Part shown: in pieces, positions 19,889 through 37,206 of the stretch
Position numbering within the stretch: position 1 is the first letter of the stretch
Layout: each line of letters opens with the position of its first letter
Source of the DNA: Salinisphaera sp.
GTDB lineage: Bacteria; Pseudomonadota; Gammaproteobacteria; Nevskiales; Salinisphaeraceae
NCBI GenBank assembly: GCA_027858915.1
Contig: JAQIBT010000079.1
Location: forward strand, 1-37,206
Reading direction: 5' to 3'
Length of the DNA stretch: 37,206 bases
The notes under the pieces: model-generated
Seen by the model: only the letters and a program-made list of their open reading frames with translations
Told to the model about the DNA's origin: nothing
The model's database searches: none
Position numbers and translations under genes: made by a program

Positions 19889-21991
19889 TTGATTTCCACG
19901 GATGACGCCACACCGGAACCCGCGCCCAGCGCGACCAGGCCCATGCTGACAGTCTGGCTCGCAGGGGAAGAGCCTGGCGAGCTGCAATCTCTTGGCGATA
20001 CGATCAAGGCGATCGATCCAAGTCTGGATGTCGTGCCTATCGGCAATCCAGCGCAGGCCATCCACGACGCTGGCACGCTACCGCCAGAGCTGTGCCTGTT
20101 GGCGTGGTCGTCAGGCCACGAGGCCGGTCGCCGTGGGTTGGACCTGCTGCGCAGCCTGGTCACGGATATGGCTGTGATATTGGTAGGCGAAGAGGCAACG
20201 CTGCCAACGCTCGGTGACGCGCTGGCTGCCGGTGCCTGGGACCGCATTGCCACGGACCAGGGCGATGAAGTGATCTGGACCCAGACGCAGCGTGCGCTCC
20301 AGATGGCGCAGCGCCAGCATCGGCTCGCAGAGGCCGATCGACGGCTTCTGAGTCTGCAACGGCGTCTCGAAGTCCTCACCAGCGACGGCAGCGATGCGTC
20401 GGCGAAGATCAACGCCGGTTTGATCGAACAGGCCAGACCCGGATTTGCCCGCCTGCTGGGGGCGGAATCCGTGGATGCGGTCAACGGCACGGCCTTTGAG
20501 ACATGGCTGCAATCTGAAGACCGCGCGGCCTACGCCGGCGCGCTCGAACAGGTCGCGAACCCAGCCAGCGAAACCGACACCAATATCGTATTTCGCCCAC
20601 CCTCGGGGTCACGCTCGCATGCCGTACGAGCGTTGCTGCGCGCCACGGCCACGTCGGGTTCGCTTGTCGATATTGTTCTGCACGAGGCCGAACGACGCCA
20701 GCCGCATTTGAGCGGCGCATCGAAACGCGTGCCCGTTGATGGCCGCATGGCGCTGCATCGAGTTCTTGCGCAGGCGTCGGTACGCGCCAAGACATACGTG
20801 CTGGGGCTGTTGTTCTTCGCGGTCGACGACGTTGCAGGCCTGCAGGCGAAATACGGCCTGTCGGGCAGTGACGTATTGTTGCAGGAGACTGGGCTGTTCC
20901 TGCTGGAAACCCTGCGTGGCAATGATCGCTGCTTTCGTTTTGCCGCAGGCGAATACGCGCTGGTGCTGGAACGCGAGTCGCAGGAGCAGGTCGCCTCTGC
21001 CGCTCAGCGCGCGCTGAATGCATTTCGCGACGAGCGCTTCGGTGACGATCAGCAGGCAATCCATCTCAGCGCCACCGTCGCGTATACGATACTCAGCCAT
21101 GATGCCACTGAAAACGACGGTCGCCTGCATCGCCTGGTTCAGGCAGCCTATAATCTGAGCGCCCGGGGGGGTAACGATCTGGTGAATTGCACTCAGGTTG
21201 CAGTCAGCGCTGATGTTGCGAAGGCCAGCGATGACTGGGGCACGAGATTACGCCAGGCGTTGGTGCATGATCGATTCAGCCTCGCCTACCAGAACATCAC
21301 CAGTCTGGCCGGCGACACCCAGTCGTATTTCGATGTCCTGCTGCGCTATATCGATGATCGCGGGGCATTGATCCGTCCCGGAGAGTTTCTGCCCGCGGCA
21401 AGTCAGACGGGCCTGTTGCCGGAGATCGATCGCTGGGTGGTGAGCCGTGCCGTCAAAGTCATTGAGCAGCAGATGGCGCGGGACGTGCACATCAGCCTGT
21501 TCATCAAGCTATCGGGCGATACGCTGGTCGACTGTCGCGACTTCCTGGCCTGGGTGCGCAGCGACCTTGCCGATATCAGCGCACCGCACACGAGCCTGAT
21601 CTTCAGCGTGCGTGACGAAGACATGCGCAAACACGCGGCCGAAACAAAACACCTGTTCACCTCCCTGACAGCGCTGGGCTTTCGGACCGCGCTCACGCAT
21701 TTCGGCAATGCCGCAGCAACCGGCCAGCTGATCGACAGTCTGTCGGTGTCGTTCATCAAGCTCTCACCCGAATTAGCCCGCAAAGTGGCGGGCAAAAGTG
21801 CCGATGACAGCCAGCTGATACATGCTATCGATAGCGCACGTAACCGCGATATTCCGCTGATTGCCGAGCAGATCGAAGACGCCAGCAGCATGGCCCGTCT
21901 ATGGCAGGCCGGCGTCAACTATGTACAGGGCCATTTCATCCAGGAACCCGACACCGAAGCCCTTACCCACAGCGAATTGGGCCGCCGCTGA
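19889..21991 (+). CDS. FimX-like protein with degenerate REC, GGDEF and EAL domains
   Basis: The 700-residue protein has a response-regulator-like N-terminus (about 20-140) without a clear phospho-accepting Asp, a coiled and PAS-like section (150-275), a GGDEF-like domain (about 290-440) and an EAL-like domain (about 455-690). The GGDEF site reads AAGEY at 352-356, and the EAL site reads DVLLRY at 482-487; the later DDF motif is replaced by THFG at 603-606. Catalysis of c-di-GMP synthesis or breakdown is therefore unlikely. This arrangement resembles FimX, a c-di-GMP receptor that acts on type IV pili. The start is a TTG at 19889, supported by AGGGGAG eight bases upstream; the next in-frame ATG is residue 19. 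Confidence 0.82.
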   Translation: MISTDDATPEPAPSATRPMLTVWLAGEEPGELQSLGDTIKAIDPSLDVVPIGNPAQAIHDAGTLPPELCLLAWSSGHEAGRRGLDLLRSLVTDMAVILVGEEATLPTLGDALAAGAWDRIATDQGDEVIWTQTQRALQMAQRQHRLAEADRRLLSLQRRLEVLTSDGSDASAKINAGLIEQARPGFARLLGAESVDAVNGTAFETWLQSEDRAAYAGALEQVANPASETDTNIVFRPPSGSRSHAVRALLRATATSGSLVDIVLHEAERRQPHLSGASKRVPVDGRMALHRVLAQASVRAKTYVLGLLFFAVDDVAGLQAKYGLSGSDVLLQETGLFLLETLRGNDRCFRFAAGEYALVLERESQEQVASAAQRALNAFRDERFGDDQQAIHLSATVAYTILSHDATENDGRLHRLVQAAYNLSARGGNDLVNCTQVAVSADVAKASDDWGTRLRQALVHDRFSLAYQNITSLAGDTQSYFDVLLRYIDDRGALIRPGEFLPAASQTGLLPEIDRWVVSRAVKVIEQQMARDVHISLFIKLSGDTLVDCRDFLAWVRSDLADISAPHTSLIFSVRDEDMRKHAAETKHLFTSLTALGFRTALTHFGNAAATGQLIDSLSVSFIKLSPELARKVAGKSADDSQLIHAIDSARNRDIPLIAEQIEDASSMARLWQAGVNYVQGHFIQEPDTEALTHSELGRR

Positions 21992-22034
21992 TGAAAAACA
22001 GCACGCGCGTTTGCGGACGCGCGTAGCCGTGCTA

Positions 22035-22313
22035 GTGTCCCGTCACGGGTATTTTGTCGCATTCAGCGAGGCTGCGCGTGTCTGTGGCAAGGCGCGTCGC
22101 GCCGGCAAGGGTCATTCCCTTGCCAAGCGACGCAACGCAGACCACGGGCGCGCACAGCCTCGCCCCACAGGCCACGTTATTCGACGGGAGCGCCTGTGTG
22201 TCCCAATCACCGCGTTGCGCTCCTTTGCCATGGCGGGCCATGACGCAGTCGCACGCCTTGTGCTTGGAACACACAGGCGCTCTGAATACGGCAAAATACC
22301 CGTGACAGGACAC
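22035..22313. repeat. Nested inverted-repeat element (MITE-like or structured RNA)
   Basis: The spacer between the FimX-like gene and mlaD is almost filled by one symmetrical element. Outer arms of 32 bases (22035-22066 and 22282-22313) match as inverted repeats with three mismatches, and share GTCACGGGTATTTTG. Inside are two stem-loops: 22067-22162, with CGAGGCTG/CAGCCTCG at the base and GGCAAGGG-TCATT-CCCTTGCC at the tip; and 22188-22282, with a perfect 13-bp base stem GAGCGCCTGTGTG/CACACAGGCGCTC and CATGGC-GG-GCCATG at the tip. No protein of meaning is encoded. It could be a miniature transposable element, a repeat of the BIME type or a transcribed structure; the sequence does not decide. 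Confidence 0.75.
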
Positions 22314-22319
22314 CAGGAC

Positions 22320-22913
22320 TTACTGAGCGTTGCTGCTGGTGGCCGCTCCGGCAGGCGATTGATTGCCATTGCTGTGACTGTCGCCGGAATGGCCGAACAG
22401 ATCGTTGCTGCCAGATGAGCTACCACCACCGCCGCCGCCGCTGCTGCCGCTGTCAGACGAGCCGCTGTTCATACTCGTCATGAACTGGCCGATCAGATTC
22501 TCCAATACAACAGCGCTTTGTGTGATGACGAATTTGTCGCCGTTCTTCATGTTCTTGAGCGAGCCGCCCGGCCCAATGCCGACATATTGATCGCCGAGCA
22601 GGCCGGAGGTAAGAATCGAGGCGTCGGAGTCCTTCGGAATCTTGTACTGATCGCTGATACGGATGCTGGCCACCGCCTGGTAGGTCTGTTGGTCGAGCTT
22701 GATATCGGTCACCCGACCGATGCGCACGCCAGCGAGATCCACTGGCGCGCCCACTTTCAGGCCGCCGATATCGTTGAAGGCAGCGGTCACTGTATAGCCC
22801 TGCACATCGCTGGTATTGGCCAGATCGCTCACCCGCATGGTGAGGATGAAGATGGCGGCGATGCCCAGACATACGAAAAGACCGACCAGAAGTTCGACTG
22901 CTCTAGATTGCAT
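22320..22913 (-). CDS. mlaD: MlaD, MCE-domain substrate-binding subunit of the Mla lipid transporter
   Basis: The 197-residue protein has one N-terminal membrane helix (residues 6-26, VELLVGLFVCLGIAAIFIL), then a single MCE domain (about 38-115) with FNDIGGLKVGAPVDLAGVRIG and GLLGDQYVGIGPG. MlaD forms a periplasm-facing hexamer attached to MlaFE and passes phospholipid between membranes. The C-terminal 45 residues are a Gly/Ser/Asn tail without clear fold. It lies 19 bases after mlaE on the same strand. MlaC and MlaB, which follow in E. coli, are not found after it; the nested repeat element comes next. Confidence 0.93.
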   Translation of the reverse strand: MQSRAVELLVGLFVCLGIAAIFILTMRVSDLANTSDVQGYTVTAAFNDIGGLKVGAPVDLAGVRIGRVTDIKLDQQTYQAVASIRISDQYKIPKDSDASILTSGLLGDQYVGIGPGGSLKNMKNGDKFVITQSAVVLENLIGQFMTSMNSGSSDSGSSGGGGGGSSSGSNDLFGHSGDSHSNGNQSPAGAATSSNAQ

Positions 22914-22932
22914 AGGCTGTAATTGGCTTCGA

Positions 22933-23718
22933 TTAGTGGCCGCTGAAAAGCACGGCGGTAAGCATGAGATTCGCGCCCAGAATCGCCAGGGAAGCGATCA
23001 CGACCGTATTGGTGGTCGCACGCGACACACCTTCCGACGTCGGTGGCGCATGATAGCCCTGATAAACGGCCACCCATGTGATGATTGCGCCGAACACGCC
23101 GCTCTTGAGAAAGATATTGAGGATGTCGCGGCTGAATTCTATGTTGGACTGAATACCGTTCCAGTAGGCCGCTGCGTCCACCCCCAGGACGTCGACGCCA
23201 ATGAAATAGCCGCCGCCTGCACCTATGGCCATGACGCAGAATATGCTGGTCAGCAGCGGCATGGCGATCAGGCCCGCGAGGAACCGAGGGGCAATGATGC
23301 GTTTGATCGGGTCGACTGCCATCATCTCCATCCCCGCTAGCTGGTCGGTCGCCTTCATCAGGCCGATCTCGGCTGCCAATGCGCTGCCGGCTCGTCCGGC
23401 AAACAGCAGGCCAGTGATGACCGGGCCCAGTTCGCGCACTACCACCAGGGCGACCGATGTGCCAAGCGCGTTTTCGGCACCGAAGTCGGCCAGCGCACGA
23501 TAGCCCGACAGAGCCAGTACCATGCCGACGAACAAACCGGCGACGACAACAATCAACAACGACAATACGCCCACCGAGTAGATCTGCTCGACTACCAGGC
23601 GCGGCTTGAGGAATAGCCGCGGCAGGTTGGCCAGGATACGCAGCAGGAACAACGTGCTCCGCCCGAGTTCTCCTAGCCAGCCGGTCGATATATTGAATAT
23701 CCGGAGCACACGGCTCAT
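22933..23718 (-). CDS. mlaE: MlaE, permease of the Mla phospholipid ABC transporter
   Basis: The 261-residue product is an MlaE/YrbE-type inner-membrane permease. The conserved core is seen: FVGMVLALSGY, the run RELGPVITGLLFAGRAGSALAAEIG with the cytoplasmic coupling segment, LMKATDQLAGMEMM, and several membrane helices to the C-terminus. The ATG at 23718 overlaps the mlaF stop by four bases, which is why this start is preferred to a longer frame reaching 23817. It pairs with MlaF ATPase and MlaD to maintain outer-membrane lipid asymmetry. Confidence 0.95.
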   Translation of the reverse strand: MSRVLRIFNISTGWLGELGRSTLFLLRILANLPRLFLKPRLVVEQIYSVGVLSLLIVVVAGLFVGMVLALSGYRALADFGAENALGTSVALVVVRELGPVITGLLFAGRAGSALAAEIGLMKATDQLAGMEMMAVDPIKRIIAPRFLAGLIAMPLLTSIFCVMAIGAGGGYFIGVDVLGVDAAAYWNGIQSNIEFSRDILNIFLKSGVFGAIITWVAVYQGYHAPPTSEGVSRATTNTVVIASLAILGANLMLTAVLFSGH

Positions 23719-35168: not shown

Positions 35169-36610
35169 TCCACGAAAAAAGCATCGCGGAAATTGTGGCG
35201 GCCCGTGGCACAGGCGATCTGTCAGCAGCCGAGGTGACTGCGCACTTCCAGCGTCGCATCGAGCAGTTCGCGGGCGGTCTGAACAGCCTGATTACCCGCT
35301 GTGATGAAGCAGCGCGTCATCAGGCTGGGTCGATCGGCAGCGATGCGCCCGGCGCGTTGGCCGGCATTCCGATCGTCCACAAGGACATCTTCTGCACCAA
35401 AGGTGTGAAGACCAGCTGTGGTTCACGCATGCTGGACAACTTCATTGCCCCCTACGATGCGACCGCCGTGGAAAAACTCGCTGCGGCTGGAACGGTCATG
35501 CTCGGCAAGGCCAATATGGACGAGTTCGCCATGGGCTCGTCGAACGAGAACAGTTTTTACGGGCCGGTGAAAAACCCTTGGAATACCGCTTATGTCCCGG
35601 GTGGCTCCTCCGGTGGCTCGGCTGCTGCGGTAGCAGCCGGCCTGGCACCGGCGGCTACTGGCACCGACACCGGCGGCTCGATCCGCCAGCCTGCCGCGCT
35701 GTGCGGCGTGACCGGCATCAAGCCGACGTATGGCCGGGTGTCGCGCTACGGCATGATTGCGTTTGCCTCCAGCCTCGATCAGGGCGGATGTTTCGCGCGC
35801 TCTGCCGAAGACTGTGCCGCAGTGCTGGGTGCGATGGCCGGCTTCGATCCGCGGGATTCCACCAGCGTCAATCGCGAGGTGCCCGATTATTCGGCCGCAC
35901 TGACCGGTGATATCAAAGGCTTGAAGATTGGCCTGCCGGCGGAGTATTTCGCGGCGGGTCTGCAACCGGCCAGCCGCGCGGTCATCGACAAGGCCATTGC
36001 CGAATTGGAAGCGCTGGGCGCCGAGATCGTCGAAATCGGCTTGCCGCATACCGATCTGGCAGTGTCGACTTATTACGTGGTGGCGCCGGCCGAGGCATCC
36101 TCCAATCTCGCCCGCTTCGATGGCGTGCGTTACGGCTATCGCTGCGACAATCCCGTCAACCTCGAAGATCTGTATACCCGCTCGCGCGGCGAGGGTTTTG
36201 GCAAGGAAGTCCAGCGCCGCATCATGATCGGGGCTTATGTGCTGTCGGCCGGCTACTACGACGCTTACTATCTCAAGGCACAGAAGACTCGCCGGCTGAT
36301 TGCCCGCGACTTCGGCCAGGCGTTCGAGCAGGTGGATCTGATCGCAGCGCCGGTGACCCAGGCACCGGCGTTCAAGCTGGGCGAGATGGGTGACGATCCG
36401 GTGTCGATGTATCTCAACGATGTCTATACGCTGCCGGCGAGCCTGGCCGGTATTCCGGGCATGTCGGTGCCGGCTGGCTTTGTCGACGGGCTGCCGGTCG
36501 GCTTGCAGCTGTTGGCGCCGTGGTTCGAGGAAGCGCGCCTGCTCAACGCCGGTCATGCGTTTCAGCAGGTGACAGACTGGCACCGGCAGCGGCCTGAGGG
36601 ATTTGAATGA
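35165..36610 (+). CDS. gatA: Glutamyl-tRNA(Gln)/aspartyl-tRNA(Asn) amidotransferase subunit A
   Basis: The 481-residue protein is an amidase-signature enzyme that frees ammonia from glutamine for GatB. The catalytic triad is seen as Lys73 (PIVHKDIF), Ser148 (PGGSSGGS) and Ser172 ([11 protein letters not shown]). It starts inside the end of gatC. The third subunit, gatB, normally follows at once, but the next 392 bases carry no gene and then an addiction-module gene starts. The protein itself shows no damage. Confidence 0.97.
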
Positions 36611-36687
36611 TTATGAAACGGGACTCGGCACTTGGGATTCGGGACTGCTGTGATCGGGGCCTGGTGGGCGAACTTTACCCAGTCCCT

Positions 36688-36712
36688 AGGGCCTGTTGCC
36701 GTTTCATGCGGC
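36688..36712 (-). repeat. Dispersed repeat copy downstream of gatA
   Basis: The 25 bases match 27841-27865 (at the rlpA start) in all but one position, including an identical 19-base core TGTTGCCGTTTCATGCGGC. The orientation on the plus strand is the same as that of the rlpA left arm. It lies in non-coding DNA here. Confidence 0.8.
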
Positions 36713-36724
36713 CCCGCGTTGTGA

Positions 36725-36810
36725 CCCAAAATCGCGTCAGACAAGACGTAGAGCGCCGGCCGCAGCCCTCTGCGGTCAAGCTCTGCAACGCCGGATGGCG
36801 CGATTTTGGG
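36725..36810. repeat. Inverted repeat in the gatA downstream spacer
   Basis: CCCAAAATCGCG (36725-36736) is exactly inverted at 36799-36810 (CGCGATTTTGGG). The 62 bases between hold a small CCGCAG...CTGCGG hairpin. It follows the dispersed repeat by 12 bases, and the two may be parts of one composite repeat element. Confidence 0.65.
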
Positions 36811-37002
36811 CCGCAACCCGAAGGGACGGCGGTAGAGTCGCCCCTTTCTTCCGCGTGTCGTCACGGGAATCGCAGGTCCGTAATTCCAACGCCCTATTCC
36901 TGAAGCGAAGTCAAGAGCGGAAGCTTGCGGATAGCGGTCTCAGATGCTGCCTACACTCCACGTTGCTAAGATATGTGTTGAGACAACACCACAGAGCACT
37001 CC

Positions 37003-37206
37003 ATGTCACAAACCCTTGTTGATATCGAAGCGGAGGCGTTGAAGCTCCCGCGGAATGAACGCGCCAAGGTTGCTCTGCATTTACTGAATAGCCTGGAGCA
37101 AGAAAAATCCGCCACCTCTCCCGAGGCCATTGAAAAAGCCTGGGTCGAAGAGTCCGTCAGACGCCTCGAGGCCTATCATCGTGGCGAAATGAAGTCGTAT
37201 TCAGTG
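37003..37206 (+). CDS. Putative addiction-module antitoxin-like protein, 5' part
   Basis: The first 68 residues are visible and the frame is still open at the window end. The sequence MSQTLVDIEAEALKLP, then ERAKVALHLLNSLE and IEKAWVEESVRRLEAY, matches the small family named putative addiction module component, whose members are about 75 residues and often precede a RelE/ParE-type toxin gene. A toxin would be expected just beyond the window. The gene interrupts the usual gatA-gatB order and is less GC-rich than its neighbours, which suggests transfer. Confidence 0.78.
   Translation, partial: MSQTLVDIEAEALKLPRNERAKVALHLLNSLEQEKSATSPEAIEKAWVEESVRRLEAYHRGEMKSYSV

Follow-up and report, generated by a model that had tools for sequence, protein, structure and literature searches.

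A 279-nt nested palindrome of Salinisphaera, likely an IS630-group MITE, carries a hairpin core recognisable in many gammaproteobacteria

Introduction

The interior of MITEs is usually taken as free to drift. MITEs of the IS630 group are already known. RUP of Streptococcus pneumoniae, a MITE of IS630-Spn1, is described as non-coding, with terminal inverted repeats (TIRs) matching IS630 and insertion at TA, and the Correia or NEMIS element of Neisseria is likewise a TIR element with TA at its ends (both in the account of PMC2229807). Correia transcripts are cut by RNase III, as stated in section 4.1 of PMC10969869 and in PMC2229807. ISY100 belongs to IS630; according to the report of PMC2170065, it moves by cut and paste and duplicates the TA at which it inserts.

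We analysed a nested palindrome in a Salinisphaera genome, lying in a stretch of 37,206 nt called hereafter the window. A reading of the sequence alone had held MITE and selected RNA to be equally open. Multiple copies, CTAG at the ends, patchy occurrence, an empty site and IS630-like ends speak for the MITE, and no RNA role emerged as its identity. The palindrome is likely one copy of a non-autonomous MITE of the IS630 (Tc1/mariner-like) group, moved in trans, which we take as a new family; by titles and abstracts, no description of its hairpin core or of a Salinisphaera MITE was recognised in the open-licence literature.

Results

A nested palindrome between two convergent genes

The element consists of two outer arms enclosing two inner hairpins (Table 1). 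Its extent, 279 nt, had been placed to the base by the sequence-only reading, and comparison of the arms confirmed that 29 of the 32 outer bases pair. Agreement within the inner inverted repeats was 82% for hairpin 1 and 91% for hairpin 2, which opens with 14 perfect pairs; a perfect inner stem had been proposed before, at 13 bp. The suggestion that the arm mismatches preserve G-U pairing held in part: read on the + strand, the three comprise one T-G and two C-A mismatches, the latter becoming G-U on the other strand. Folding of positions 22020–22330 gave −188.5 kcal/mol, versus −123.4 (sd 5.6) for shuffled sequences (z −11.7; none of 100 shuffles as low). Two mechanical open reading frames (185 aa on the + strand, 105 aa on the − strand) overlap the element and extend beyond its ends.

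Table 1. Features of the element and its neighbours, in window coordinates; R1 and R2 are covariance models of the hairpin core
Feature	Position	Strand	Evidence
GGDEF/EAL protein gene, neighbour	19889–21991	+	PF00563 E 1.8e-42, PF00990 E 3.5e-8
TA of left target site (C-TA-G)	22033–22034		CTAG before TGTCC at most of 37 ends read in own genome
Left terminal inverted repeat, GTGTCCCGTCACGGGTATTTTGTCGCATTCAG	22035–22066	+	29/32 agreement with right arm
Hairpin 1 (arms 22066–22087, 22142–22163)	22066–22163	+	Fold, inverted repeats, compensatory changes
Hairpin core, loops AAGGC/AAC and CGCC/AAG	22087–22138	+	69.4 bits R1, 69.8 R2; sequence itself in training set
Variable linker between hairpins	22164–22187		Identity 0.35–0.62 between subfamilies; other regions 0.73–0.94
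Hairpin 2 (arms 22188–22210, 22260–22282)	22188–22282	+	Fold, inverted repeats, compensatory changes
Second hairpin core, opposite orientation	22212–22261	−	34.9 bits R1, 35.1 R2
Right terminal inverted repeat	22282–22313	−	29/32 agreement with left arm
Right target duplication, probably decayed: CA (TA in most other copies)	22314–22315		End comparison
mlaD, neighbour, convergent with GGDEF/EAL gene	22320–22913	−	PF02470 E 1.7e-24

As the sequence-only reading had it, the element fills the gap between a c-di-GMP-type gene and the mla operon; Pfam supports both neighbours, and they are convergent. From the stop codon of the GGDEF/EAL gene to the element there are 43 bases, and from the element to the stop codon of mlaD only 6. 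An Rfam search of 21000–23500 (E up to 1) returned a miRNA family as its sole match, at 24.2 bits against a gathering score of 128. Between 21900 and 22400 no sigma-70-like promoter was found, and the one terminator-like site (22025–22002, − strand) is no more than chance would give, the mean in shuffles being 0.6. This hairpin has its T-run on the − strand and lies beyond the element as seen from mlaD.

Copies in the genome and an empty site

The best relatives of mlaD belong to Salinisphaera, to which the host was assigned on this basis. In its own genome (4.3 Mb in 169 contigs) the element gave 56 matches, which were merged by eye to about 28 places; the existence of second copies, on which the earlier reading had made its case depend, was thereby established. 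Twelve of these places are no more than 40 bases from a contig end; the assembly apparently breaks at copies, which makes the true copy number uncertain. Some copies are nearly whole and 94–95% identical, a second subfamily is 75–79% identical, and further copies lack one or both hairpins. The terminal pattern matched 36 times in this genome and its reversed control not once. The family was present in two of 14 Salinisphaera genomes, the same two being found by a second search, and the exact TIR patterns had no match in genome_contigs or viral_contigs, collections from which records close to the element's own genome may be excluded.

One copy separates trkA from trkH (TrkA_N/TrkA_C and TrkH by Pfam), two genes in tandem. 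All 13 relatives of the genus have trkA-trkH without the element: the junction was read in eight, and in five there were two aligned pieces 7–65 bases apart. About five of nine sites with joined flanks went into this search for empty sites. In the element's own genome the trkA stop codon stands in a CTAG context and is followed first by another repeat (GGCGCCTGTCGGG...CCGGCAGGCGCC) and next by the element, TA standing at each junction; because of this second repeat, the empty site is not base-precise. In the same genome a dispersed repeat whose ends resemble CCAGGAGGCTGTCGGACTC or CTAGGCGCCTGTCGGG occurs in flanks of four loci (L002, L005, L007 and L011) and abuts the MITE at trkA. For the window copy, the orthologous site was not located in relatives, since the flanks of 13 mlaD loci showed no EAL gene; two of these loci (L103 and L105) had almost no downstream flank.

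At two loci of this genome the first G of the element completes a TAG stop codon, in a RelA/SpoT-like gene with ACT and TGS domains (L015) and in a gene for a Cys/Met PLP enzyme (L017). If G is the first base, an element landing in a stop codon within C-TA-G would restore TAG. Insertions of this kind would leave the protein unharmed. Targeting of CTAG may favour stop codons. The window contains 28 CTAG sites, many fewer than the 132 expected from base composition and slightly fewer than the 35 expected from trinucleotides.

Element ends and candidate IS630 partners

Together with its target, the element reads C-TA, then GTGTCCTGT...ACAGGACAC, then TA-G. Two IS630 elements of the genus look complete, L199 spanning 1177 bp and L193 spanning 1147 bp, and each carries CTAGTGTCCTGT at either end. 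Their proteins, of 362 residues, match NF033545 transpos_IS630 (8.1e-81 and 9.5e-85, respectively) and also DDE_3. The window family shares GTGTCCTGT with these elements, and apart from the CTAG context the likeness stops after about ten bases.

The element's own genome yielded no complete IS630 element bearing exactly this TIR; it holds four IS630 fragments, one of them with the right kind of end: 84% identical to residues 225–362 of the L193 protein, it lies beside an end of the CTAGTGTCCTGT type. In G020, though rich in related elements, there was no DDE_3 match. This search for partners covered the IS630 family. A candidate for the end of an autonomous partner (C16) turned out to be an internally deleted copy. 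Another IS630 element, with ends CTAATCCGTTC or ACTAATCCGTTC, is present in five copies of equal score on C1 of G007 (L188, L197, L202, L204 and L206). Also on C1, at 2818990 (L138), a single-hairpin relative with GTGTCCTGTAAC ends sits inside an IS630 transposase gene that looks broken by eye.

The family shows several traits of IS630-group MITEs: it is short and non-coding, with TIRs, dispersed copies, an end matching IS630 and an empty orthologous site. By analogy with what has been shown for ISY100, it would be moved by a transposase of IS630 type, by cut and paste. Acting in trans, this enzyme would recognise GTGTCCTGT...ACAGGACAC, excise the element and insert it at CTAG, duplicating TA. 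The window copy is probably an old one.

TA or four-base duplication

Since CTAG is palindromic, duplication of TA and of the four bases CTAG look alike at most sites. The element could accordingly be TGTCC...GGACA between two CTAG copies, a MITE of a transposase that duplicates four bases YTAR, of IS5 or IS481 type. IS5-type elements make a 4-base YTAR duplication, and those of IS481 type have TG...CA ends. Formally, CTAG at both ends is a perfect 4-base repeat. A precedent would be MITEPsy1, which duplicates CTAG or YTAA and is thought to derive from ISPsy2, being marked 'IS5?' in the description given in PMC3189936. A copy in G261 (L268) moreover has TTAA on both sides, but it belongs to a family with other ends.

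The two readings differ in what should vary: with G as the first base of the element, variation is expected outside TA, and the inner G should be constant. Among 44 ends from G007 and G020, the outer base was not C at 9 and the inner base not G at none (P = 0.0025). In G007, however, the T of TA varies as much (6/16) as the outer base (5/16), which marks those ends as decayed, and the two L074 ends are doubtful. In the element's own genome, where T is kept at 33 and A at 34 of 37 ends, deviations of the outer and inner base did not differ (2/37 versus 3/37; L012 is truncated and L009 out of register), and the pooled test gave P = 0.047. The autonomous elements that share these ends are IS630, in a search confined to that family. 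An IS630 element duplicating TA is therefore more likely than a 4-base duplication, and we regard a YTAR transposase as an unlikely source.

Structure inside the family

In ten near-whole copies from the two genomes, 97.5% of cells pair, and 16 pairs change on both sides. The covariation score was 0.169; shuffles gave 0.091, and sliding the alignment gave no more than 0.062. The number of pair types (31, versus 32.7 in shuffles) was not in excess. Compensated change can reflect selection on the fold or, in a DNA palindrome, repair between its arms, two causes that the covariation test does not separate. Across the family, identity is 0.73–0.89 in the core, 0.85–0.94 in the termini and 0.35–0.62 in the linker, so that the core is no better kept than the termini.

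A hairpin core shared beyond the family

Both hairpins hold a core of 50–52 bases whose stems covary and which contains two asymmetric internal loops; its form is GC-AAGGC-GCGnnn-CGCM-stem-loop-stem-AAG-nnnCGC-AAC-GC. Beyond the two genomes of the family, nearly all DNA matches, in G020, G015 and an Azotobacter plasmid, cover about 50–60 bases inside a hairpin; the exception is one longer, weak match in G020. A pattern made of the core ends led, among the matches listed, to similar hairpins in many gammaproteobacteria. Their lengths peak at 51–52 bases (among the matches listed), at the upper edge of the gap allowed, which leaves a constant length unproved.

Covariation was examined in 33 sequences, chosen after matches unlike the hairpin had been dropped. 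Because the core ends of alignments A1 and A3 are mostly imposed by the search pattern, only the inner stems count as evidence. In these stems 84.1% of cells were paired, versus 34–47% when slid, and the covariation score was 0.391, versus 0.132 in shuffles, none of 500 reaching that value. Neither the pairs changed on both sides (9 versus 9.0) nor the pair types (30 versus 26.9; 59 of 500 shuffles as high) were in clear excess. The structural constraint sensed by the sequence-only reading is borne out by compensatory changes, within the family and in a core shared far beyond it.

At E <=1e-4 the covariance model R1 had matches in 69 of 274 gammaproteobacterial genomes, and the matching genomes fell into 54 of the 221 genera; by our own count, 22 of the 69 had given training sequences and 47 had not. 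In a sample of the phylum, 30 of 299 genomes matched at 1e-5, 16 of them of the class and 14 of one family outside it. These R1 counts come from a training alignment with one erroneous row, and the corrected model R2 scored almost the same on the loci compared. Where two cores are neighbours, they nearly always point in opposite directions: in 19 of 20 such loci the left one is on the + and the right one on the − strand, both being on the − strand in L007, where the second lies outside the element. The core match just outside the element in L007 (1692–1744, 22.2 bits) is probably in the neighbouring repeat.

When two to four copies per genome were compared in 19 genomes, 12 genomes showed a clear CTAG boundary, and the elements so bounded differ in their ends (for example CTAGTGTACTGCG, CTAGTACTCTTTC, CTAGGGAGACGC and CTAGGGGGCGTTC). 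Other boundaries were TAG (G170), TATA (G234 and G287) and, for one pair in G103, TA followed by CTAAGACAAACG; they were fuzzy in G307 and G002, and none was seen in G197 and G298. A TIR scan of 31 hairpin loci (at least 13 of 16 matches) was discarded: it returned TA 16 times, versus 13 for AT, 9 for CG and 14 for GC, and did not discriminate because the hairpin arms are themselves inverted repeats. Of 25 loci with IS630 genes, 18 were searched with R2, and no core match was found at 0.05; the core therefore belongs to the MITEs, not to the IS630 elements seen here.

Other repeats with the core were noticed close by. In the window itself, a core match (36741–36791, 25.4 bits) lies beside CTAGGGCCTGTTGCC at 36686, in a region spanning 36686–36830; its right end was not found by eye in 36550–37206. 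Ends similar to CTAGGGCCTGTTGCC recur in the flanks of L004, L006 and L140. The same genome holds, at L134 (1125–1405; C14), a further family, CTAGTACCTTATTTCACC...GGTGAAATAAGGTACTA, with both hairpin cores.

Discussion

The very stable fold, the compensatory changes in the family and the 6 bases that separate the element from the mlaD stop codon would also suit a structure domesticated by the host, either a regulatory RNA or a fold in a 3' UTR, that is retained at mlaD or at the EAL gene. At the window site, mlaD mRNA would carry the element at its 3' end, or transcription from the EAL gene would cover it. Yet its copies are dispersed at unrelated genes and carry internal deletions, the end pattern is missing from 12 of 14 genomes of the genus, no Rfam family was recovered, and the EAL gene did not turn up beside mlaD in the 13 relatives, including the two with almost no downstream flank (L103, L105). 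Such a host function is very improbable, and the dispersed, patchy and deletion-prone copies, with the lack of an Rfam match, lead us to reject a selected RNA as the primary identity. A role at the 3' ends of convergent genes, a position that the sequence-only reading had proposed to check, fits the window copy and fails at trkA-trkH, where the genes are in tandem. Still more remote is a REP/BIME-like palindrome moved by a RAYT (Y1) transposase on single-stranded hairpins. BIMEs have asymmetric, mismatched hairpins in inverted pairs, which the two cores recall; the element, however, has long TIRs and TA/CTAG flanks, which to our knowledge are not REP features.

As an IS630-group MITE, the element is an ordinary kind of genomic parasite; what sets it apart is one folded core recognisable in 54 of the 221 genera sampled, though ends and stem sequences differ. 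From these comparisons of sequence we infer that selection may act on the folded hairpin, as read-through RNA or as single-stranded DNA, to the benefit of the element itself; the core might, for instance, reduce the damage done to flanking transcripts or assist transposition. If so, these MITEs would rely on a folded signal that they have in common, and a covariance model would provide a means to find and classify them where sequence search fails. More tentatively, and with some doubt, the core of about 52 bases could be a mobile structural module in its own right, acting as folded RNA or as single-stranded DNA and requiring both of its internal loops. A widely conserved factor would bind it, MITEs belonging to several transposase families would have taken it up across Gammaproteobacteria and in one family outside the class, and the Correia elements of Neisseria would carry a shortened form.

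Comparison with known systems

CIR of Caulobacter resembles the element in its two hairpin arms with a linker and in TA at the termini; in the account of PMC2229807 it differs in being without TIR and in carrying a GANTC motif. MITEPsy1 of Pseudomonas syringae is also a small MITE at CTAG targets, but its description (PMC3189936) gives it 100 nt, a 4-base duplication and ends GGAAGGTCTG. QMITE1 and QMITE2 of Coxiella are gammaproteobacterial MITEs of 150–400 bp with very stable folds; their description in PMC5896051, with direct repeats of 2–4 or 7–11 nt, sets them apart. RUP measures 107 bp, whereas the Salinisphaera element measures 279 bp and has two internal hairpins with the shared core.

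The Correia TIR is TATAGTGGATTAAATTTAAA, whereas the window element begins with GTGTCC and does not carry it. R1, run over eight loci fetched by the Correia TIR, which we take to be from Neisseria, gave one local match (E 0.031), and a larger R2 search gave no match at 0.05 over four of the Correia-TIR contigs. The Correia hairpin GTACGGCAAGGCGAGGCAACGCCGTAC, read from a copy in a contig of the viral collection, has the same outer motif as the core, GGCAAGGC...GCAACGCC, with the inner stems almost absent. This connection is a lead, and the core makes it a testable link between the Correia elements and the MITEs described here.
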